Part shown: one piece after another, positions 1 through 10,883 of the stretch
Position numbering within the stretch: the first letter of the stretch is position 1
Layout of the letters: every line of letters starts with the position of its first letter
Source: Methanomassiliicoccales archaeon
GTDB taxonomy: Archaea; Thermoplasmatota; Thermoplasmata; Methanomassiliicoccales; UBA472
Direction: 5' to 3'
Length of the DNA: 10,883 nucleotides
NCBI GenBank assembly: GCA_013329565.1
Contig: DUJZ01000053.1
Span: 1-10,883 of the forward strand
Program-made: the position numbers and the translations under genes
The notes under the pieces: model-generated
The model's input: only the letters and a program-made list of their open reading frames with translations
The model's database searches: none
Told to the model about the DNA's origin: nothing

Positions 1-1421
1 GAGTAGACGAGGACGTACTCCTTCCCGAACTCCCCCTCCCGGACGCGTTCGGAGGGCTGCAGGTGCCCCTTCTTATCAAGTACCCCGGTGAGGAACATCT
101 GCGCCAGCAGATCTATCAGTCCGGAACCGCAGAGCCCTTTGGGGCGGGTCCTCCCGATGGTACTGTACTGTACGCCTCCCTTTAACGAAACCTTCTCGAT
201 CGCCCCGTCCCCGGCGCGCATGCCGTGGCAGACCTCGCCCCCTTCGAAGGCGGGACCGGCTGAAGCGGAGCAGGCCAGGAGCCAGTCCTTGTTGCCGAGC
301 ACGACCTCGCCGTTGGTTCCGACATCGATGAGCAGGCCGATGCCCTCGTTCCTGGCCATGCCGCTGGCCACCACGTCCGCTATGACGTCGCCGCCGACGT
401 AGCTGGCCCGTCCGGGCACCAGGTGCACCGATGCCCGGGGGTTGACGTTCAGACCTATCTCGCTGGCGTTGATGCGCGGCGAGAGATTCGTCACCGGCGT
501 ATATGGCGCGTAACGTATGCACCTGGCATCCAGGCCGAGCAGCATGTGCATCATTGTCGTATTTCCAGCCACGCTGACCGCCATTATCTCCTCGGCGCAG
601 ACCTTCCTGCCCTTGCCGACACAGACCTCGCTCGCATTGTATACCCGGGCCAGCATGTGGTTGATGGTGTCGACTATCATGAGCCGGAGGCGGTCCTGCC
701 CGTTATCCTCTCCGTACATTATGCGGGCCAGCACGTCCTCGCCGTACATCAGCTGGCGGTTGTAGTCGGAAACCTGGGAGATCATCTCTCCGGTGCTCAG
801 GTCGACCAGCTGCAGGGCGACGGTGGTCGTTCCAACGTCCACGGCCGCTCCGAAGTTGCGGGAAACGCAGTTCCAAGGCCGGACGTCCACCAGGATGTTG
901 CCGTCCAGGAACGCCGTCACCGTCCACTCCCCTTCACGGATGGTCCCGGGCAGTTCCCGGAGCAGCGACAGCGGCACGTCCAGTGCGCCAGGTTCGTACC
1001 CCAGCTGTTTGAGCAGGCGCTCCAGGTCGGCGTCGTTGTCCTGAAGGCTCGGAGGACGCAGCTTCGCGTAGACCGCTCTCACCAGAGGGGAGAGCTGCTT
1101 CAGATCGGTGCTCACTTTTCCCCCGACGATCTGCATGGGCTTGAGCTGACTTTCCTCCGGGACGAAGACGATGCAATCGCCCTTGACCTTGGAGAGGCAT
1201 GCCAATCGGTAACCGCTGCCCCATTCCTCATCGGTCATCCTGGGAGTCTTCTCGGAATCGATGTCCCCGTCCACCACCACCCGGCAGCGTCCGCAGACGC
1301 CCTTTCCGGCGCAGGCGCTGTTGACCTCCACTCCTGCGAGTATTGCCGCCTCCAGCAGGCTGGTGCCTGCCGGAACGTCGATGCTGCGGCCTTTGGGATG
1401 GAAGGTCACCTGGGGGCTCAT
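1..1421 (-). CDS. RACo-like ASKHA ferredoxin, reductive activator of corrinoid protein (3' end outside window)
   Basis: I translated the minus strand from the ATG at 1421; the frame stays open for 473 codons to the window edge, so the C-terminus is missing. Residues 1-90 form a plant-type [2Fe-2S] ferredoxin domain with Cys37, Cys43, Cys46 and Cys75 (C-x5-C-x2-C spacing). After a linker and middle domain, an ASKHA ATPase-like domain starts near 190: a DVGTTT phosphate-binding motif at 195-200, VAGNTTMMH at 284-292, a second phosphate motif DVGTNGE at 366-372, and SAGPAFEGG at 387-395. Known members of this family (RACo; domain formerly DUF4445) use ATP and an Fe-S centre to reduce inactive cob(II)amide on methyltransferase corrinoid proteins to Co(I). 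No methyltransferase or corrinoid gene is visible here, so the partner is unknown. Archaeal RamA does a similar job but carries C-terminal [4Fe-4S] clusters; this N-terminal [2Fe-2S] layout is the RACo type. The start is supported by a TATA-like box 26 nt upstream. Confidence 0.88.
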   Translation of the reverse strand, partial: MSPQVTFHPKGRSIDVPAGTSLLEAAILAGVEVNSACAGKGVCGRCRVVVDGDIDSEKTPRMTDEEWGSGYRLACLSKVKGDCIVFVPEESQLKPMQIVGGKVSTDLKQLSPLVRAVYAKLRPPSLQDNDADLERLLKQLGYEPGALDVPLSLLRELPGTIREGEWTVTAFLDGNILVDVRPWNCVSRNFGAAVDVGTTTVALQLVDLSTGEMISQVSDYNRQLMYGEDVLARIMYGEDNGQDRLRLMIVDTINHMLARVYNASEVCVGKGRKVCAEEIMAVSVAGNTTMMHMLLGLDARCIRYAPYTPVTNLSPRINASEIGLNVNPRASVHLVPGRASYVGGDVIADVVASGMARNEGIGLLIDVGTNGEVVLGNKDWLLACSASAGPAFEGGEVCHGMRAGDGAIEKVSLKGGVQYSTIGRTRPKGLCGSGLIDLLAQMFLTGVLDKKGHLQPSERVREGEFGKEYVLVY

Positions 1422-1443
1422 CCCAAGCGAATCCCTTCCTGCG

Positions 1444-1451
1444 TTAATAAA
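1444..1451 (-). promoter_or_regulatory. TATA-like box of the RACo-like gene
   Basis: On the minus strand this reads TTTATTAA. Its centre (1447.5) is 26.5 nt from the A of the ATG at 1421, the distance expected between an archaeal TATA box and the transcription start. The mRNA would therefore begin at or next to the start codon (leaderless). No Shine-Dalgarno is convincing in front of the ATG, which fits. Confidence 0.5.
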
Positions 1452-1502
1452 TGCTCTCGAGGGCCACGCATGAAAATGATTTAGGGAAAGACGACGCTCC
1501 CG

Positions 1503-2414
1503 ATGCGCATGGAGCACGGGCATCACCACCATGGCGGGTCGACCAGGATGCTCATGTACGCCCTGGCCATAACCGCCTCCTTCGCCCTGGTGGAGGTGGT
1601 GGGCGGCATCCTCAGCGGCAGCCTGGCCTTGCTGAGCGACGCCGGACACATGTTCACCGACGTGCTTGCGCTCGGCCTCAGCCTGGGAGCGGCGCTCATC
1701 GCCAACCGAGCCGCAACTGAAAGGCATACCTTCGGATTGCTGCGGGTGGAGATACTAGTGGCCTTCATCAACGGCATCGCCCTGGTCGGCATCTCGCTGC
1801 TGGTCGTGTACGAAGCCATAATGCGATTCTACGATCCGGTGGAGATCGACACCGGGGTCATGCTATTGGTGGCACTTATTGGTCTGGGAGCCAATCTGAT
1901 CGGGATGGTCCTGCTGGAGCCCGGCTCGAAGGATAACCTGAACGTTCGGGGGGCTTTCCTGCACATGATGGGCGATCTGCTCTCCTCCATCGGGGTGATC
2001 GTGGCCGCCCTGATCATACACTTCTTCTCCTGGTATGCTGCAGACCCGGTCATCAGCATCGGAATTGCGATGGTGATCATGCTTGGAGCCTACCGCCTGA
2101 TATCGCAATCCGTGTCGATCATGATGGAGGCGGTGCCTTCGCACATCGATGTGAAGGAGGTGGAGGAGACCATCAAAGCGGTGGACGGGGTCGTCGGGGT
2201 GCATGATCTGCACGTTTGGACCCTGACCTCTGGGATCTACTCGCTCAGCGGGCACGTGGTGGTGCAGGACCAGCAGGTGAGCTCCTGCTCGCGGGTGCTC
2301 AGGGAGATAGAGGAGGTGTTGGACCGCCGCTTCAGCATCGTACACACCACCATCCAGGTGGAGACCGATATCTGCCCGCTTGACAAGTATGATGTACACC
2401 GTGGAGCGCAATAG
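1503..2414 (+). CDS. Cation diffusion facilitator (CDF) family metal efflux transporter, zinc-type
   Basis: This 303-residue protein is a typical full-length CDF exporter, which swaps cytoplasmic divalent metal for protons across the membrane. The N-terminus has a His cluster (HGHHHH, 5-10). Six hydrophobic segments lie at about 16-38, 45-66, 82-104, 118-138, 152-172 and 178-200. The transport site is visible as H49-x3-D53 in TM2 (within SDAGHMFTD) and H154-x3-D158 in TM5 (within HMMGD); this paired HxxxD pattern belongs to Zn/Co/Cd exporters rather than Mn or Fe ones. Residues 205-290 form the cytoplasmic C-terminal domain with HDLHVWTLTSG at 234-244, as in CzcD and ZitB. The gene is divergent from the RACo-like gene, with 81 bp between the starts. 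A second ATG at 1509 (M3) is a possible alternative start; only a weak TATA-like stretch precedes it (near 1473-1483). No metal regulator lies next to it, so the exact metal is open. Confidence 0.93.
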   Translation: MRMEHGHHHHGGSTRMLMYALAITASFALVEVVGGILSGSLALLSDAGHMFTDVLALGLSLGAALIANRAATERHTFGLLRVEILVAFINGIALVGISLLVVYEAIMRFYDPVEIDTGVMLLVALIGLGANLIGMVLLEPGSKDNLNVRGAFLHMMGDLLSSIGVIVAALIIHFFSWYAADPVISIGIAMVIMLGAYRLISQSVSIMMEAVPSHIDVKEVEETIKAVDGVVGVHDLHVWTLTSGIYSLSGHVVVQDQQVSSCSRVLREIEEVLDRRFSIVHTTIQVETDICPLDKYDVHRGAQ

Positions 2415-2548: not shown

Positions 2549-3574
2549 ATGGAGACCCGAAAGATACAGGTCACCGGTAAATCAACTTACGTCGTTTCTT
2601 TGCCGAAGAAATGGGTTAACAAGGTCAATATCAAGAACGGGGACAGCGTGGTGCTTTTTCCTTTACCTGACAACACCCTTCTCATCAACCCCCACATTGG
2701 CGAGAAGGAGCGGCCGCAGACCAAGATGGTCATAATGCTGAACACGGATGACATGGATGAGATGCTGCGACGTTTCGTAGGCGCCTATCTTGCCGGTTAC
2801 TCCGTGATCGAGTTCCGATCTCAAAAGGACATACCCATGGCCGTACGCCAACGGGTGAGGCGTATTTCTCAGTACATGATCGGCCCGCAGATCATCGATG
2901 AAAACCCAACATCCATCTCGTTCAAGGACATGCTGGACGCCAGCGATTTTTCCATGAGCAAGGCGGTGAAGCGCATGCAGCTTATCACCCTGGACATGCT
3001 CAAAGAATCAATGAAAACATTGAAGGACGGTAAGGGGCGCGGAGAGGACATGAACTTTCGTGATGATGAGGTGGATAAACTGTACTGGATGATCACGAAA
3101 CAGTATAACCGAATTCTGAGGGATGCCTTGTTCGCTGACAAACTGAACATGACCTCTCAAGAAGCCATGAGCTATCATCTCATAGCCCGATCGGTCGAGC
3201 GCATGGCTGACCATGCCCTCAAAATTAACAATAACGTCCAGGCATTGAACGGGGGCGTCGCGATCGCGAAGAACCTGGAGGAAATGGTCCAACGCATCGG
3301 TATTCTTAGCGACGAGGTTCTGAACTCGTTCTTCCGTGGGCGTTACGATCAGTCGTACGACCTGGTCTCAAAGGCTCAAGTTATCGTAGGGGATCTGGAA
3401 AAGATGAAGCGCGATCTATTGACGGAGGGCAAGGAGCCTAGGACCGTTGTTCCGCTGGCTTACATAATTGACAGCCTGGAACGCATAGCGTCATATGCTG
3501 AGGACATTGCGGAGATAAGTATCAATCATCACTTCGTCCATGAACACGACCAATCCCTGATCCAAAGCCCCTGA
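2549..3574 (+). CDS. phoU: AbrB-PhoU phosphate uptake regulator
   Basis: The protein has 341 residues and two parts. Residues 1-48 look like a SpoVT/AbrB swapped-hairpin DNA-binding domain (TGKSTYVVSLPKKWV at 9-23, then NGDSVVLFPL). The rest is a PhoU-type helical region with two repeats at about 135-230 and 240-325. Acidic metal-binding-type motifs are seen at DDEVD (172-176), ARSVERMADHALKI (213-226) and DSLERIASYAEDIAEI (308-323). The C-terminus is His-rich (NHHFVHEHD). In bacteria PhoU lacks the AbrB part and restrains the Pst transporter and the PhoR kinase. The fused form is common in archaea and suggests direct DNA binding; that role is inferred from the domain. The gene is followed by pstB on the same strand, 65 bp from the favoured pstB ATG. 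The start is supported by the AbrB domain beginning right at Met1 and by the TATA box 26 nt upstream. Confidence 0.92.
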   Translation: METRKIQVTGKSTYVVSLPKKWVNKVNIKNGDSVVLFPLPDNTLLINPHIGEKERPQTKMVIMLNTDDMDEMLRRFVGAYLAGYSVIEFRSQKDIPMAVRQRVRRISQYMIGPQIIDENPTSISFKDMLDASDFSMSKAVKRMQLITLDMLKESMKTLKDGKGRGEDMNFRDDEVDKLYWMITKQYNRILRDALFADKLNMTSQEAMSYHLIARSVERMADHALKINNNVQALNGGVAIAKNLEEMVQRIGILSDEVLNSFFRGRYDQSYDLVSKAQVIVGDLEKMKRDLLTEGKEPRTVVPLAYIIDSLERIASYAEDIAEISINHHFVHEHDQSLIQSP

Positions 3575-4433: not shown

Positions 4434-7400
4434 TCAGTTAGAGGACATCTTAATGGATAATCGGCCTATCATCTTCGCAGTGATGTTCAGTATGACCACG
4501 ATGATTATCAGCACGAACGCCACCGCGTACAGCTTCTCCCCATACGCAGGTATCTTACTGACCAGGTCGTAGTACTGATAGATCATGTTCGGCATGGAAG
4601 CCGCTGGAGATAATATGGAGGAGGGCGTGATTATCAGATATCCGGCGGTGAGCAGCACGGCCGCGGTCTCTCCTATGGCCCTTCCGATCGCGATGATGAC
4701 CCCGCTGATCACACCCGATATGGAAGATGGAAGGACGACTGACCGGACCATCGCCCATTTTGTTGCCCCCAGTGCCTGGGAGGCCTCACGATATGTGTGG
4801 GGAACGGTCCTGAGCGATTCCACCGAGCTGACGAATATCAAAGGTAGCATCATGCAGGCTAAAGTCAGACCTCCGGAGATCATGGAAAATCCGAAATCCA
4901 ATATGAAAATGAACAGCATGAATCCGAATATGCCAAAAATTATCGAGGGCGTGCTGGCCAATGTGCTGGAAGCCAGCATCGATCCCTTGACCAAAAGGCC
5001 GTTCGGCCGGGCGTACTCGTTGACATAGATGGCCGACATGACGGACATCGGTACAGCGAACGCCAAGGCTATGATGACCATGCCGACCGACCCCGCCAAC
5101 GCGTTCAGGAAACCTCCCCCAGCATTTCTTCCGCTCTCGGGAAGAAGCAGATAGTCCAAGGTGATGGAGGTTCCTCCGCGCATTATTATGTCACCTATGA
5201 TATAGGCCAGGAAAGTCATCACCAGGATGACGGTCATAAGCGTTCCCAGTGTTGCCGCCCTGTCCCAGGTCCTGGCGCGGTTGGTTGGTGTGAACTCCAC
5301 CTCCCATCGATTTTTTGATGGCCCCGTTCCCCTCAGGTCCAAAGACGATAGGAGCGAACACATCTTCAGCTTAATTCCCCTGGAGCATGCCCGCCTGGAC
5401 CTTTTCCTCCTCGTTCCATTCGATAGATAGGAGAGCATTATGTTCAGGATAAGGACGAGGGCGAACAGGAGGAGGGCGACCGAGAACAGACCGTGACGGG
5501 ATTGCGGGTCGCCATAGCTCGAAGCAAACGAGGAGGCGATCACACTTGTCATCGTGCCAACCGAATCGAAGATGGACCCCGGTATCCTTGAGGATGACCC
5601 CATGATCATCAGTACGGCCATGGTCTCGCCTATTGCCCTTCCCATGCCGAGCACTATCGCGGCGAATATTCCAGACCTGGCATGCTTCAATACGACCTTC
5701 CGAGATGTCTGCCACCTCGATGCTCCGACCGCGTAGGACGCTTCTTTGATGTCATACGGGACCGCCGCTATCGAATCGTATGATAATGACAGGATTATTG
5801 GAAGAATCATTATCCCCAGTACTATCGAGGCCGTCATAATGGAGTTGGTTCCGTCGCTGTTCAGGTATAGGAAGGGAAGGAACGAGCCGAGCGTGGATGA
5901 CAAGACAGGGTACATGTGCTCGGACAGGAGCGGGCCGAAAGTAAGCCCCCCCCACAGACCATAGATAACTGACGGGATCCCCGCCAATACCTCCATCATG
6001 GATTTTATCGCCCCCCTCAACTTCCTAGGGCATTGTTCAGCCAGAAACAGGGAGCTGCCGAGGGCCAGGGGTACTGCGATCAGCAACGCGATAACGGTCG
6101 TTAGGGCGGTCCCCAGAATGAAAGCGAGCATCCCATAATGGCTCTCCGTGCCGGGAATGATGATCTGGATACCGATAAGGCCGTTTCCAGAATACGTCCT
6201 TTCTGTAACATAGGCGATCTCGATGCTGGTGGTGGTCCCGTTGAGATACAGCACCGTTTCGTTTGATAGGTCGATCAGATGAGAACCGTTTATGAGATAG
6301 GGGGTCACTCCATCGGGTAGCTCGACCGCCTTGATCAGAACGTACGGCGTGCCGGAGGATACGACCTGATAGGAACGTTTTACCGTCGAATCCGGTACCA
6401 CAGGTATGACGAGATCGTCATGCCCCTGCAGTATTTTCGTATACGTGAAATCGAACTCGAACCTGTAATTATCAAGAGCGTCTCCATCCACCATCGCTTG
6501 GACGATGATCTCGTGAGAACCCTGCACCTGAACCAGATAACCAGGTAGAAGCAGGAAGCTCAGATTGTCGCCTGGCATCAAGGTGACAGTAGCTGACATC
6601 GTCGAATAGTTCCACAGGGCGAGGTTGAGCGAAGGATGGAAACGGGAGGGATCGGCTTGGACCACCAAGGACACATCGACCTCTGATCTTCCGTTATTCT
6701 CCAAAGTGATCATCTGGTTGAACGAGTTGGATTGAACGTTGGAGATCGACCTGTGATCGAAGTCCCTGCTGAAATCGACTGCGGTGTCGGAGTCGACATG
6801 TAAATTGATCGTTCTCGACTCTGTGTTTCCACCGGTGTCCTCGGCGTCGATGAAGATGAAGTGATCACCAAGGTTTGACGGAACGACGTTAAGAACGAGG
6901 CTGACCGCCTCGCCCTGGACGAGTGAGATTATTGAACTGTTCGGAGTAACGATCAGCGTATCGTCCGAACTTGTGACCACTATCGATATGGTGTTCGATG
7001 TTGCCCCGGTATTGACGATCTGAATCGAGGTGGTCCTCGTATCGTTCAACACTGAATGGATGTCGGAATCGTTTTCGGCGAGAGAGAAGGAGAAGGGCAG
7101 AAGGGTCGTGTTCAGATAAGTGATCTCCACGATGTCGGGGTTGTGTTCAGGGAACCATTCGGTAGTGGTCAACATCTCCACAGGATCGTTTTCGATGAAT
7201 CCGTTCAACCCTTCGCTTCCGATCAGCAGGATGATGACCACCACGATGGCGATCATGCTTATCGTGGATCCCTTCAGGATTGTTTTAATTGGGCGCTCAC
7301 CGAAGAGCAGGATAGATAGAACGAGCGCCTCCAGGACCAACCCGCCGATTATCGAGATGACGATCGCGTTGATGGGTGGTGAGGCCCAGTTGAAGAATGA

Positions 7401-7640
7401 TGAGGGGTAGAGAAGTACCCCGATAATGAATACCAAGAAGAACTGCAGCTGCCAGATGAAATAGAACCATTTCACGGGCTTTTTGACAAGCCCGAGCAGC
7501 CCTATCTCACTGAACATCACCAGCATCGGCAAGAAAGGCTGGGACGAAAGGTCGGCGGAGAACGATAGAAGCAACAGGAACGAGAGGACCTGCAGGGAGA
7601 GCAGGTAAACGATGCGCCTGTCGATGGTGAGTTTTCTCAT
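4434..7640 (-). CDS. pstCA: Fused phosphate ABC transporter permease PstC-PstA with large extracellular domain
   Basis: This single 1068-residue frame contains both permeases. Hydrophobic segments at about 10-29, 36-52, 58-78 and 89-113 are extra to PstC. A fifth at 124-142 would be PstC TM1, followed by an extracellular region of about 355 residues (145-500). The PstC transmembrane core is 503-740, with the EAA loop EASYAVGASRW (633-643) and GRAIGETMAV (667-676). A basic linker (RRKRSRR, 744-750) should be cytoplasmic. PstA follows at 795-1060, with EASQALGATKW (952-962) and GRAIGETAAV (986-995). The extracellular part has at least two Ig-like beta-sandwich patterns (about 204-283 and 308-400) and eight N-x-S/T sequons, at Asn177, 199, 234, 344, 359, 451, 460 and 467. 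The protein forms the phosphate channel with PstB. PstC and PstA are usually separate proteins of about 300 residues each. The first in-frame ATG after a stop is 7640; it overlaps the stop of a short leader ORF. Confidence 0.93.
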   Translation of the reverse strand: MRKLTIDRRIVYLLSLQVLSFLLLLSFSADLSSQPFLPMLVMFSEIGLLGLVKKPVKWFYFIWQLQFFLVFIIGVLLYPSSFFNWASPPINAIVISIIGGLVLEALVLSILLFGERPIKTILKGSTISMIAIVVVIILLIGSEGLNGFIENDPVEMLTTTEWFPEHNPDIVEITYLNTTLLPFSFSLAENDSDIHSVLNDTRTTSIQIVNTGATSNTISIVVTSSDDTLIVTPNSSIISLVQGEAVSLVLNVVPSNLGDHFIFIDAEDTGGNTESRTINLHVDSDTAVDFSRDFDHRSISNVQSNSFNQMITLENNGRSEVDVSLVVQADPSRFHPSLNLALWNYSTMSATVTLMPGDNLSFLLLPGYLVQVQGSHEIIVQAMVDGDALDNYRFEFDFTYTKILQGHDDLVIPVVPDSTVKRSYQVVSSGTPYVLIKAVELPDGVTPYLINGSHLIDLSNETVLYLNGTTTSIEIAYVTERTYSGNGLIGIQIIIPGTESHYGMLAFILGTALTTVIALLIAVPLALGSSLFLAEQCPRKLRGAIKSMMEVLAGIPSVIYGLWGGLTFGPLLSEHMYPVLSSTLGSFLPFLYLNSDGTNSIMTASIVLGIMILPIILSLSYDSIAAVPYDIKEASYAVGASRWQTSRKVVLKHARSGIFAAIVLGMGRAIGETMAVLMIMGSSSRIPGSIFDSVGTMTSVIASSFASSYGDPQSRHGLFSVALLLFALVLILNIMLSYLSNGTRRKRSRRACSRGIKLKMCSLLSSLDLRGTGPSKNRWEVEFTPTNRARTWDRAATLGTLMTVILVMTFLAYIIGDIIMRGGTSITLDYLLLPESGRNAGGGFLNALAGSVGMVIIALAFAVPMSVMSAIYVNEYARPNGLLVKGSMLASSTLASTPSIIFGIFGFMLFIFILDFGFSMISGGLTLACMMLPLIFVSSVESLRTVPHTYREASQALGATKWAMVRSVVLPSSISGVISGVIIAIGRAIGETAAVLLTAGYLIITPSSILSPAASMPNMIYQYYDLVSKIPAYGEKLYAVAFVLIIIVVILNITAKMIGRLSIKMSSN

Positions 7641-7793: not shown

Positions 7794-8807
7794 TCAGTAT
7801 ATCGACTGGGTGTAGGAGATGAACCCGGCGTCCTCGCAGAACGCTACATTGTTCTCGGCCTCGAGGATGAAGTTGATGAAGGTCTGAACCTCACCGGTCG
7901 GCTCGCCGTTGGTCAGAATGACCAGGGGCCTGGAGGCCTCGTAGCCACCATCGATGCCCATGACGCCCTTCACGATCTTCTTGGCGTCAGGAAAGACGTC
8001 ATTGAACCCGAGGTAGTCAACATCGGCGGACTCCGCCATGCCGTAGGAGGCGAAGCCGATCCTCATGTTGGTCCCGGTCATCATCGCGTCGATCATGCCC
8101 TGGTTCCCATTGACGCTCACATCGGCCGTGTTCGTGCCGAAGAACGCTTTATCGTCGAGCATCATTTCCGCAAAGCCGTCCTCGGTACCGGACTCATCGG
8201 CCCTGTCGTAGGTTACGAGGAGGACGATCGAGGTGTCAACACCGGTGTCGGGGTTGAGAGCGGTAGCGAGGTCTCCAACATCCGCTATGGTGCCCAGGTA
8301 GATGTCCTTGGCGATGACGGCGGTCAAGTTGCCGTAGTCAGCAGCATCTACACCGGCTGTGGCCAGTTCGGCGCTCAGAGCGTCGTTCATGACCATGACG
8401 ATACCGTCATAGGCGATGGTGGTCTGGACCAGGTTCGGGTAAGCCTCGATCTCGGAAGCCTTCAGAGCCCTGGAGGCCATGCCGATGTCGCACTTGTCCT
8501 GACCGATGGTCACGACACCAGCGCCGGACCCGACGTTGCTTATGCTGATCGCGTAGCTGGGGTTCTGTTCCATGTAGGCGGCAGCGGCCGGGGTCATGAA
8601 CTCGAACACGGTGGAGCTTCCGGCTATGGTGATGGTGTTGGTTATGTCCACACCTCCCATATCATCCTGCATATCCTGTTGCCATCCGGATTGCCACAGA
8701 TAGAAGCCGGACGACGCCGCTACGGCGATGAGCACCAGCATCAGGGTGGCGATGACAGGCGAGATGGCACTGACATCTTTCTTCATTTTCTTCAACATCT
8801 TTTGCAT
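7794..8807 (-). CDS. pstS: Phosphate-binding protein PstS with archaeal type IV pilin-like N-terminus
   Basis: The protein has 337 residues from the ATG at 8807. Residues about 55-335 are a PstS-type phosphate-binding domain: IAGSSTVFEF (61-70), VGSGAGVVTIGQDKCDIGMA (92-111), the phosphate-contact motif DRADESGTEDGF (201-212) and the usual C-terminal ending INFILEAENN...AGFISY. The N-terminus is not a Sec or lipoprotein signal. It is a charged stretch (KKMKKD) followed by SAISPVIATLMLVLIAVA (13-30), the signature of archaeal pilin/archaellin N-terminal domains (Pilin_N), which are cut by the prepilin peptidase PibD/FlaK on the cytoplasmic side before the hydrophobic stretch. PstS should therefore stay membrane-anchored or join a pilus-like assembly and hand phosphate to PstCA. 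Only two cysteines are present (106, 324). M4 (8798) is the better start if the mRNA is leaderless, because a TATA-like box lies 26.5 nt before it; a G-run at 8816-8820 instead favours M1. Confidence 0.93.
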   Translation of the reverse strand: MQKMLKKMKKDVSAISPVIATLMLVLIAVAASSGFYLWQSGWQQDMQDDMGGVDITNTITIAGSSTVFEFMTPAAAAYMEQNPSYAISISNVGSGAGVVTIGQDKCDIGMASRALKASEIEAYPNLVQTTIAYDGIVMVMNDALSAELATAGVDAADYGNLTAVIAKDIYLGTIADVGDLATALNPDTGVDTSIVLLVTYDRADESGTEDGFAEMMLDDKAFFGTNTADVSVNGNQGMIDAMMTGTNMRIGFASYGMAESADVDYLGFNDVFPDAKKIVKGVMGIDGGYEASRPLVILTNGEPTGEVQTFINFILEAENNVAFCEDAGFISYTQSIY

Positions 8808-8820
8808 TTTAGGTTCCCCC

Positions 8821-8828
8821 TATTTATC
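8821..8828 (-). promoter_or_regulatory. TATA-like box of pstS
   Basis: The minus strand reads GATAAATA. Its centre (8824.5) is 17.5 nt from the ATG at 8807 but 26.5 nt from the next in-frame ATG at 8798. If it is the real promoter, the message is leaderless and PstS starts at residue 4 of the long reading frame. An alternative, weaker T-rich stretch near 8915-8922 would give a leader of about 85 nt. Confidence 0.45.
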
Positions 8829-8851
8829 GCCATCACTTCACTCGGAAGATC

Positions 8852-8874
8852 ACGGGCGAGGGCCTTTAGCCCGT
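8852..8874 (-). repeat. Inverted repeat upstream of pstS
   Basis: ACGGGC (8852-8857) is matched by GCCCGT (8869-8874) around an 11-nt spacer. It lies about 65 bp upstream of the predicted pstS start site. It could be a regulator site, or an RNA hairpin if transcription starts further upstream. Confidence 0.3.
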
Positions 8875-9020
8875 AATTAGCGAGAACCGTAGCCTACTTG
8901 AGCCTTGCACAAATAGAAAAAGGGACGGGGCTTTCGCTCACTACCTCCCTAACCAACCATGAAAAAATGTATCATCCTTTCTGATTTTTCAAAACCATGC
9001 ATAGGGGCGATCAAAGGTCT

Positions 9021-9041
9021 AGAACCTGTGTGACAGGTTCT
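9021..9041 (+). promoter_or_regulatory. Perfect 21-bp palindrome, candidate operator between pstS and the secretion ATPase
   Basis: AGAACCTGT and ACAGGTTCT are perfect 9-bp inverted arms around GTG. It sits in the 284-bp divergent region, about 66 bp before the TATA-like box of the ATPase gene and about 200 bp from that of pstS. Arms of this length with a 3-nt spacer are typical of a site for a dimeric regulator. No T-run follows, which speaks against a terminator. The regulator is unknown. Confidence 0.55.
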
Positions 9042-9083
9042 GTAAATGCCTCCCGGTCCGGTCATTTTTCTACATTCCTAATG

Positions 9084-9091
9084 ATTAAATA
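9084..9091 (+). promoter_or_regulatory. TATA-like box of the secretion ATPase gene
   Basis: ATTAAATA ends directly before the first ATG (9092), too close to serve that start. Its centre (9087.5) is 25.5 nt from the in-frame ATG at 9113 (M8), so a leaderless message starting there is likely. No Shine-Dalgarno precedes either ATG. Confidence 0.45.
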
Positions 9092-10873
9092 ATGAGCCCC
9101 GCTCGTAACCTCATGGGTAACATATTGGGCGCCTTCGCCGTCCCCCTGAAGACCGTCAAGGATAAGACGGAAGGCGACCCTTTTTTTGATGTCAAGAAAA
9201 GGGACCTCTTAAGGTCCAAGCTCAAGGATCTGGAGAAGGAGATCATGGGCGAATCGGCCGTGACCGATAAGATTGCCCTGCATGAGATCATATCGTACAT
9301 GCGAAGGCAGAGGGAGAACCAGGGGACGAACATTGATCTCGCATACCCGGTTAGACCTCCCTATTCCTTTGTCGAGGTGAACTTCGACCCCCGGGAGGGA
9401 GAGTACCGCTATAATGTCAGGGAGCCTCACCTGCGTTCCGAGGACGCGCATCTCATACAGGAGATCAAGGAGAAGATGGAGGCCACCATGGACCAGGAGG
9501 AGATCCCTACCGATGATGGCAACGTATTCTGCCGATCGCCCAATATGACCTCCTTCATAAAGAGGCGCTACTTGGAGGTCCTAGACCTGTTCGACATCGG
9601 CGTGGACGCCAAACGAAATCCGGTGTATCAATATTACATAGAAAGGGACCTTATCGGATTGTCGCGGTGCGACGCCGTCCTGAACGACCCCTTCGTTGAA
9701 GATATCAGTTGCAACGGGGCTGGCTTGCCTCTTTATGTTTTTCACCGGGTTTTTGGTTCCATGAAGACGAACGTGATGTTCCCGGACGACCTGGAGCTGA
9801 ACCGTTTCGTGGTCAAACTTGCCCAGGTGTCGGGACGCCACGTCTCCATCTATCAGCCAATATTAGATGCGACGCTGTGCGACGGGAGCCGAGTGAATCT
9901 GACCCTGGGGTCGGAGGTGACCACAAAGGGATCCACCTTCACTGTGCGTAAGTTCTCCTACGACCCCATATCCCCGATCGACCTGATCAAGTTCGGTTCG
10001 GTCTCGTCCCAGCAGTTGGCGTACTTCTGGACGTTGATCGAGAACAAGAAGTCATTGCTGGTGTCCGGGGGAACGGCCAGCGGGAAGACCACCCTCATGA
10101 ACGCCCTGTGCATGTTCATCCGCCCGGAGGACAAGATCGTTTCCATAGAGGACACCCCGGAGATCCAGATAGAGCATACCAATTGGATCCAATCCGTCTC
10201 TCGTTCAGGGTACGGCATGGCCGGCAGCGGGTCGAACGCCGGGGGGGCGTCGGGGATGAGCAATCCAGGGGGTTCCACGCCAGGCTCTATCACCCTGTTC
10301 GACCTATTGATCGCCGCCCTCCGTCAGAGACCGGAGTACATCATCGTGGGGGAGGTCAGGGGGAAGGAGGCCTTCACCCTGTTCCAGGCCATTGCAGTCG
10401 GCCACGCCTCCATGGGAACTGTCCACGCCGGAGGGATTGACGAGCTGATGCATCGCATCGAGAACGAGCCCATGAACATCCCCCGGGTGCTTTTCCAGAG
10501 CCTTGACGCCGTGGCGTTCCAAGGGCAGGTGATCTACAAGGGTCGCCGGGTCCGCCGGATCAAGAGCGTCACCGAGATCCTGGAGATAGAACCGACCACC
10601 AACGATCTGATGACGAACGAGGTGTTCGCCTGGGACCCCTTCAACGACCAGTTCGAGTTCAACGGCCGGAGCTACGTGTTGGAATCGATCGCCAAAGAGA
10701 CCGGCCGCATGGCCGACCGCATACTCGAGGAGATGGGCAGAAAGAAGCGTTACCTTGACCAGATCCATAGCAGGGGCATTTCGTACTATAAGGACGTAAG
10801 CGACGCCATCGGCGCATACTATGTCGATCCAGACAACGCCTTTGAAAAGCTCGAAGGAAGGAAAAGTAATTGA
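9092..10873 (+). CDS. Archaeal type II/IV secretion system ATPase (GspE/TadA/FlaI family), pilus assembly type
   Basis: The 593-residue protein is a hexameric motor ATPase of the kind that builds archaeal pili or archaella. An N-terminal region (1-185), which I do not recognise, precedes the family N-domain (about 186-300; LNDPFVEDISCNGAG at 197-211). The RecA-like core has Walker A GGTASGKTT (326-334), Asp box SIEDTPEIQI (351-360), Walker B IIVGEVRG with Glu421 (417-424), arginine-rich ALRQRPEY (409-416) and His box GHASMGTVHAG (437-447). All catalytic residues are intact. A Gly/Ser/Asn-rich stretch of about 25 residues (373-398) is inserted between the Asp and Walker B boxes. It has no archaellum genes beside it; it is divergent from pstS, whose product has a pilin-like N-terminus, so a shared assembly system is inferred. 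The likely true start is M8 at 9113 (586 residues), from the TATA spacing. A second gene seems to begin right after the stop. Confidence 0.93.
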   Translation: MSPARNLMGNILGAFAVPLKTVKDKTEGDPFFDVKKRDLLRSKLKDLEKEIMGESAVTDKIALHEIISYMRRQRENQGTNIDLAYPVRPPYSFVEVNFDPREGEYRYNVREPHLRSEDAHLIQEIKEKMEATMDQEEIPTDDGNVFCRSPNMTSFIKRRYLEVLDLFDIGVDAKRNPVYQYYIERDLIGLSRCDAVLNDPFVEDISCNGAGLPLYVFHRVFGSMKTNVMFPDDLELNRFVVKLAQVSGRHVSIYQPILDATLCDGSRVNLTLGSEVTTKGSTFTVRKFSYDPISPIDLIKFGSVSSQQLAYFWTLIENKKSLLVSGGTASGKTTLMNALCMFIRPEDKIVSIEDTPEIQIEHTNWIQSVSRSGYGMAGSGSNAGGASGMSNPGGSTPGSITLFDLLIAALRQRPEYIIVGEVRGKEAFTLFQAIAVGHASMGTVHAGGIDELMHRIENEPMNIPRVLFQSLDAVAFQGQVIYKGRRVRRIKSVTEILEIEPTTNDLMTNEVFAWDPFNDQFEFNGRSYVLESIAKETGRMADRILEEMGRKKRYLDQIHSRGISYYKDVSDAIGAYYVDPDNAFEKLEGRKSN

Positions 10874-10883
10874 ATGATTGAGC
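10874..10883 (+). CDS. Start of a downstream gene (only first codons in window)
   Basis: ATG at 10874 directly follows the ATPase stop (TGAATG), with a purine-rich AAGGAAGGAAAAG (10854-10866) before it that can act as a ribosome site. Only Met-Ile-Glu is visible. In archaeal pilus loci the ATPase is usually followed by the membrane platform protein (TadC/FlaJ, GspF-like); that identity is a guess from context. Confidence 0.4.

Follow-up and report, generated by a model that had tools for sequence, protein, structure and literature searches.

The bindosome has one studied case, the Bas system for sugar uptake in Sulfolobus, and a broader use is suspected (PMC2910488, PMC4187195). In Sulfolobus/Saccharolobus solfataricus—the sole organism in which it had been identified as of 2010 (PMC2910488)—the system has binding proteins with pilin-type signals and, to serve them, an ATPase of the pilus type together with pilins and a platform in the membrane (PMC4187195, PMC2910488). 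No specific appendage has been seen for Bas, and high-mass complexes with the S-layer are reported (PMC4187195). Proteins with such class III signals are also routed through Sec (PMC2910488); their distinction is the hydrophobic helix, which is retained on the mature protein (PMC4187195). Here, we describe contig DUJZ01000053.1 of a Methanomassiliicoccales archaeon—the window, an entire contig of 10,883 nucleotides (C169) from an 83% complete genome (G000)—in which a pstS gene with a predicted pilin-type head stands divergent from a gene that encodes an ATPase for type IV filament assembly. We consider it rather probable that a dedicated type IV pilus-type machine puts this PstS on the archaeal surface, which would make the system a phosphate bindosome in function. 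The features concerned are as follows.

7794..8807, minus strand: pstS with pilin-type head, 337 amino acids, N-terminus MQKMLKKMKKDVSAISPVIATLMLVLIAVAASSGFYLWQSGWQ
8766..8807, minus strand: PstS residues 1–14, predicted class III leader MQKMLKKMKKDVSA, I15 being aligned to mature residue 1 of Iho670
8658..8765, minus strand: PstS residues 15–50, pilin-like α1 helix, from the predicted model and the conserved head
7812..8639, minus strand: PstS residues 57–332, phosphate-binding domain with R202-x-D-x-SGT208
8808..9091, no strand: intergenic region of 284 bp common to the divergent pstS and ATPase genes
9092..10873, plus strand: type IV filament assembly ATPase of the pst-linked clade, 593 amino acids, complete
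10874..10883, no strand: contig end, where TadC1, TadC2, and the remaining module follow in relatives

Judging from its sequence, the first of these encodes a phosphate-binding protein of the PstS type that bears the head of an archaeal type IV pilin, as the preliminary description had proposed. We count it as PstS for its fold and binding motif, and PBP_like_2 matches it with 83.5 bits (cut-off 27). In the predicted model, residues 17–50 form one unbroken helix. A profile of the head retrieves from the PDB the mature N-terminus of Iho670 (E 1.4e-8) and the filament core 3j1r (E 3.6e-9), with pilin residue 1 placed on I15; the whole-protein profile also retrieves Iho670 (E 5.3e-7), and the single window sequence aligns residues 15–46 with mature residues 1–32 (E 0.0074). 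In Ignicoccus hospitalis, the Iho670 fibre (PDB 5kyh, 3j1r) resembles PstS in a near-identical α1 (VSPVIATLLLILIAVAAAVLLYTWVSG), which there opens a chain of 303 residues. Its large domain is not recognizably a phosphate-binding protein, since the PstS profile matches only the first 29 residues. The function given for the Iho670 fibre is adhesion (PMC4187195). One wording of the preliminary description, namely that the pilin-type signal stands in place of a Sec signal, has to be dropped, as class III signals likewise use Sec (PMC2910488).

The head is a recurrent property of such proteins. In a database of 5.8 billion proteins, 42 of the 120 listed matches cover at least 96% of the window PstS (its own copy included), and the pilin head is visible by eye in all 41 relatives among these; the other 78 listed matches cover 21–84%. 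With the PstS of a UBA184 genome as query, 301 matches were obtained, and about 40 of the 120 listed bear the name "flagellin-like protein"—an annotation of many such phosphate-binding proteins that surface assembly of PstS, if true, would explain.

A pilin-headed PstS lies upstream of, and on the opposite strand to, an ATPase of the window's clade in 26 of the 27 loci that are readable upstream. In 53 loci of other pilus ATPases, by contrast, no frame like PstS, the cluster pilin, the KaiC-like protein, or the AAA ATPase was found at E 0.001 (54 control loci minus the clade member L156; flanks of ~0.1 to 10 kb, some short). The adjacency that had been put up for survey is thus conserved in relatives. 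The 27 loci are the window; 22 others that were retrieved when 400 genomes from the class were searched with the ATPase; G314, whose ATPase is partial; and L119, L137, and L142. Three loci are uncounted because their contig breaks off where the ATPase begins (G367/L156, L127, and L131). Across the 400 genomes, 23 bear both genes, one bears the ATPase only (cut by a contig end), and 374 bear neither. A headed PstS without a clade ATPase occurs in two of 25 genomes (G395 and G411), both times at a contig end. A Fisher test on this co-occurrence ignores relatedness—most carriers belonging to one family, f14—and the search effort was unequal, as the ATPase fragment of G314 was found only by inspection beside its PstS.

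This skew toward family f14, which holds UBA184 and includes one match labelled Candidatus Lutacidiplasma, is what one would see if two unrelated genes had become linked by chance or hitch-hiking in a single lineage. However, the pair also recurs in two families within the order of the window (its own and that of G043) as well as in Zod_Metabat.472 and PL25a_bin.104, with rearranged neighbour genes and with ATPases 50–59% identical to that of the window, which makes mere coincidence very improbable. The pst–pilus module is kept together across several Thermoplasmatota lineages.

The ATPase itself agrees with what had been described, a divergent and complete enzyme of the type IV pilus type: its 593 residues match T2SSE with 112.8 bits (cut-off 24.9) and the profile of PDB 2oap with 471.6 bits. 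In a tree of 37 ATPases, all 13 sampled pst-linked ones form one group with a support of 100/100. The 400-genome search is bimodal, with 23 matches in 22 genomes at 721–1347 bits (window included) and the next match only at 450 bits; G367 contributes a truncated fragment of 66% identity. An archaellum was considered and rejected, with 400.8 bits for the FlaI/ArlI model (cut-off 550) and 23.6 bits for the ArlH model (cut-off 215) on the KaiC-like protein of G043. Most of the module also occurs in a record labelled Woesearchaeota (L127, WJKY01000074.1), whose ATPase is cut at the start and 62% identical to that of the window; it groups with Thermoplasmatota in the tree and is likely misbinned or mislabelled, or a case of transfer. 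Four pilus-type ATPase matches were seen in G043, whose ATPase on contig C3 is identical to a protein of a record named Methanomassiliicoccus luminyensis. The passage on Methanomassiliicoccus in the 2016 census speaks of three Thermoplasmatales species without secretion ATPases (PMC4858521).

The preliminary description had another gene apparently following the ATPase. In the window itself the contig stops 10 bases past the stop codon; in relatives, two T2SSF/TadC-like proteins are encoded there—one such gene had been suspected—followed by a block of a pilin (~264–397 amino acids), a KaiC/ArlH-like protein (~206 amino acids) with a P-loop that appears degenerate by eye, and an AAA ATPase (~330–420 amino acids). 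This three-gene block is intact, though inverted, between Methanomassiliicoccales-type and UBA184-type loci. The entire module is present in the M. luminyensis record, and as this human-gut methanogen is cultured, direct testing is feasible. Toward its N-terminus, the second TadC-like protein (L119:12717-14114, L068:6165-7595) gives weak matches of the Ig-like kind—in L119, Big_13 with 20.8 and TIG with 16.8 bits, both under cut-off—which is odd for a platform protein.

The cluster pilin is predicted to consist of a 47-residue helix and β domains. In Foldseek, the top ranks are unrelated β-rich proteins at low TM scores, followed by an archaeal pilus at rank 12 and an archaellum at rank 14 (TM by target 0.66 and 0.62). 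The window genome encodes an orthologue on contig C140, 36% identical to that of G043, together with the start of a KaiC-like gene at the contig edge. Misbinning of the window contig is hence not favoured: C140 carries the other end of the module, and the base composition fits (0.55 in the window vs 0.547–0.626 in seven other contigs, some taken only in part). A prepilin peptidase gene is found at G000:C126:1056-1937, with 38.7 bits for Arc_PepC_II (cut-off 29.9), 23.4 bits for Peptidase_A24 (below the cut-off of 26.5), and the motifs SDWR and GGAD located by pattern. Three features of the type IV filament superfamily are thereby at hand: a secretion ATPase, a TadC/PilC platform linked to it (in relatives only), and a genomic prepilin peptidase. 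The same genome bears a frame of ~1270 amino acids that starts with a Pilin_N head of 44.2 bits (L071, G000:C1, 3691-7503), which is an unusual size for a pilin-like or surface protein.

With a dedicated pilin in the clusters of relatives and on C140, PstS is not the sole possible substrate of the machine. The preliminary description had named a separate pilin gene that explains the ATPase alone as a reason to doubt its proposal; the pilin is there, as a possible alternative substrate. One may therefore think of a phosphate-starvation pilus that is made of the cluster pilin, with PilA-like pilins encoded elsewhere, while PstS is only a neighbour in the Pho regulon and its head merely a membrane anchor. 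The module's own all-β pilin with its long helix, whose structural matches include archaeal filament subunits, would suit such a pilus, as would PhoU, which was found at 18 of 29 loci other than the window, and the small PilA-like pilins of each of six genomes searched. ATPase/TadC loci can also be served in trans by pilin genes (PMC4858521). Nevertheless, we hold this to be unlikely. A head that served as an anchor and nothing else would not have to keep an almost invariant pilin sequence, and yet it is the best-conserved part of PstS: 20 PstS from ATPase loci share on average 79% pairwise identity over the head (residues 14–44 of the window protein) vs 44% over the binding domain. In binding proteins with an ordinary signal sequence, the signal is usually the part that varies most. 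The rarity of a headed PstS without the clade ATPase speaks in the same direction.

So does the nature of other binding proteins. In the 400-genome search, ten weaker matches to the PstS profile begin in the head region or close to it, and none of them is clearly a headed PstS: eight represent binding proteins whose membrane helices are plain, that of G089 is doubtful, and that of G345 is a small pilin. The window genome bears a second, conventional Pst locus (L073, G000:C19, 1998-3777, minus strand), in which two fused phosphate-binding domains stand behind a plain N-terminal membrane helix, and G329 encodes a second PstS-like protein, of 564 amino acids, inside its pst–pilus cluster between pstB and phoU (L194 6302-7996, G329:C130). 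Both proteins are headless; hence, the head goes with the machine and not with PstS as such. A search of six genomes with the head profile gave 22 matches at E < 0.001—six PstS, six cluster pilins, and ten other pilin-like frames, as sorted by eye and not by a Pfam scan, with seven weaker matches (E 0.005–0.5) left outside the sorting.

In this search, all six genomes combine the cluster pilin with one or more small PilA-like pilins, as would also be expected if PstS were a sparse minor or tip subunit that senses or captures phosphate on a filament mostly made of other pilins. We regard this as improbable: there is no positive evidence of a mixed filament, and the small pilins bear another head (such as VSPIIATILLVAITVVLAAVLY) that clearly differs in sequence from that of PstS. 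At the other extreme, PstS might be the main building block of the filament in the slot of the major pilin, with the β-rich pilin as a minor or initiating subunit; the cell would then put out a filament or a surface lattice covered with phosphate-binding domains, a phosphate antenna under Pho control. In the euryarchaeal type IV pili of clade 2 (Makarova et al. 2016), an ATPase, one or two TadC proteins, an all-β pilin, and nearby KaiC-like ATPases occur together much as they do here (PMC4858521). The census regards FlaFind-positive all-β pilins of 250–550 amino acids as probable minor pilins and the PilA family as major (PMC4858521); unlike in clade 2, PstS stands here at the spot where the PilA-family major subunit is expected. 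It is on these census roles, on the adjacency of PstS and ATPase, and on a small PilA-like gene near the ATPase being noted only in G369 that the antenna version rests, which we advance only tentatively and with more doubt than confidence.

For the broader proposal—a machine dedicated to bringing PstS to the surface—the following sequence of events can be envisaged. PstS would be synthesized as a prepilin and cross the membrane in a Sec-dependent manner, with its helix staying in the membrane; the prepilin peptidase of the genome would cut between A14 and I15. The linked ATPase and the two TadC-like platform proteins might then extract PstS, which would pack via its α1 helix—along with the β-rich pilin—into a surface oligomer or filament. 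Such a structure could gather phosphate for the PstCA–PstB transporter.

Several observations weigh against this proposal. The processing of PstS, the action of the ATPase on it, its oligomerization, and a gain in uptake are all steps that we infer, and the dedicated cluster pilin could be the machine's only substrate. There is one long pilin gene per cluster, and in G369 a further small PilA-like pilin lies near the ATPase. The class III signal, for which a check with a FlaFind-type predictor had been suggested, holds up in part: TIGR02537 (archaellin/pilin N-terminus) passes on four of four tested PstS of other loci (27.0, 34.5, 33.2, and 34.7 bits) but gives 14.1 bits on the window copy, below its cut-off of 20. 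Pilin_N does not match the window PstS at E 0.01, nor at E 1 in a search of its own genome. A strict FlaFind-like motif is found at the aligned site in just nine of 20 headed PstS and not in the window PstS, where KKDV and KDVS lie two to three residues upstream. The module's TadC genes were not found in the window genome, a T2SSF search giving only the C60 locus; therefore, the middle of the module is probably unassembled. The pairing has its irregularities as well. In G369, its sole exception, PstS and ATPase share a contig at a distance of ~9.6 kb; G254 and G314 have a frame for a membrane protein of 200–250 amino acids inserted between the two genes, on the ATPase strand; G236 has an additional headed PstS without adjoining ATPase; and G395 has its headed PstS at a contig end with no ATPase on the upstream side. 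The inserted frames (L110:2980-3582 in G254 and L189:757-1509 in G314) look alike.

How close, then, is the pst-linked machine to Bas? Both bear a pilin-type signal on a binding protein, the head of the window PstS being homologous to Iho670. Unlike in Bas, the substrate is phosphate instead of sugars, two TadC-like proteins (in relatives) replace the single BasF, one long pilin stands against the three BasABC pilins, and the machine genes are linked to the pst locus. The BasE family model NF053672 gives 181 bits on the window ATPase (cut-off 1000) and 185 and 214 bits on ordinary pilus ATPases of the same genome. As the window ATPase is no nearer to BasE than these, orthology is rejected, and at most an independent bindosome-like system comes into question. 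The BasF model (NF053673) gives 33.5 bits on the first T2SSF protein of G043 (cut-off 1300). With the BasE and BasF scores far under their cut-offs and no BasABC set, the best reading of this comparison is a machine that may work like Bas without being a member of it. Of the bindosome logic that the preliminary description had extended to phosphate, the head, the pairing, and the TadC genes stand, whereas the ATPase is not BasE-like and the cluster has its own pilin. A binding protein for an inorganic nutrient is here tied to a full pilus-type module with its own ATPase clade. If the proposal is true, archaea have more than once adapted the machinery of a pilus to the collection of nutrients. 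Literature searches, with subscription papers outside their coverage, turned up no phosphate bindosome or pilin-headed PstS, and the words phosphate and PstS are absent from the main text of the 2016 census (PMC4858521).

The remaining features of the window belong to the intergenic region and to the other genes of the pst locus.

9021..9041, no strand: perfect 9+9 bp inverted repeat AGAACCTGT-GTG-ACAGGTTCT in the pstS–ATPase intergenic region, candidate operator
4434..7640, minus strand: fused PstC-PstA permease, 1068 amino acids, with an N-terminal extension of ~440–490 amino acids
3625..4404, plus strand: pstB (TIGR00972 371.5 bits, cut-off 343.2)
2549..3574, plus strand: phoU with a MazE/AbrB-type N-terminal domain (PhoU 67 bits, MazE_antitoxin 34.8 bits, both above cut-off)

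The locus shares with the bacterial Pst transporter the PstS fold, PstC, PstA, PstB, and PhoU; it differs in the pilin head of PstS, in the fusion of PstC and PstA in the window, and in its linkage to a pilus-type machine. The fused permease scores above cut-off with both TIGR02138 (405.3 bits, residues 499–741 on positions 57–293) and TIGR00974 (339.6 bits), and fusions of similar size are found in G043 (1071 amino acids) and Zod_Metabat.472 (1122 amino acids). Its extension (6171-7640, minus strand) consists of membrane helices and then a β-rich stretch with many N-x-S/T sites, as judged by eye; possibly, it is a docking arm for PstS.

The exact pattern of the intergenic repeat was seen in no shuffle, in a test built from the sequence itself. 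An operator shared by the module was rejected, with no perfect inverted repeat with arms of at least 7 in the intergenic regions of 11 relatives. A different short inverted motif is visible by eye in the intergenic region of UBA184-family loci. Outside the class, a PhoU-like gene lies ~4 kb upstream of a pilus ATPase at three Thermoproteota loci (L158, L159, and L164), where a KaiC-like gene (by eye) precedes the ATPase; no Pst genes were found at these three loci. At the far end of the window, a RACo/AcsV-like frame (3-1727, minus strand) overlaps a divergent cation-efflux gene (1503-2414, plus strand) solely by virtue of its first start codon, which lies far upstream; as the Fer2 domain starts only at residue 108, the true start probably lies near 1410.

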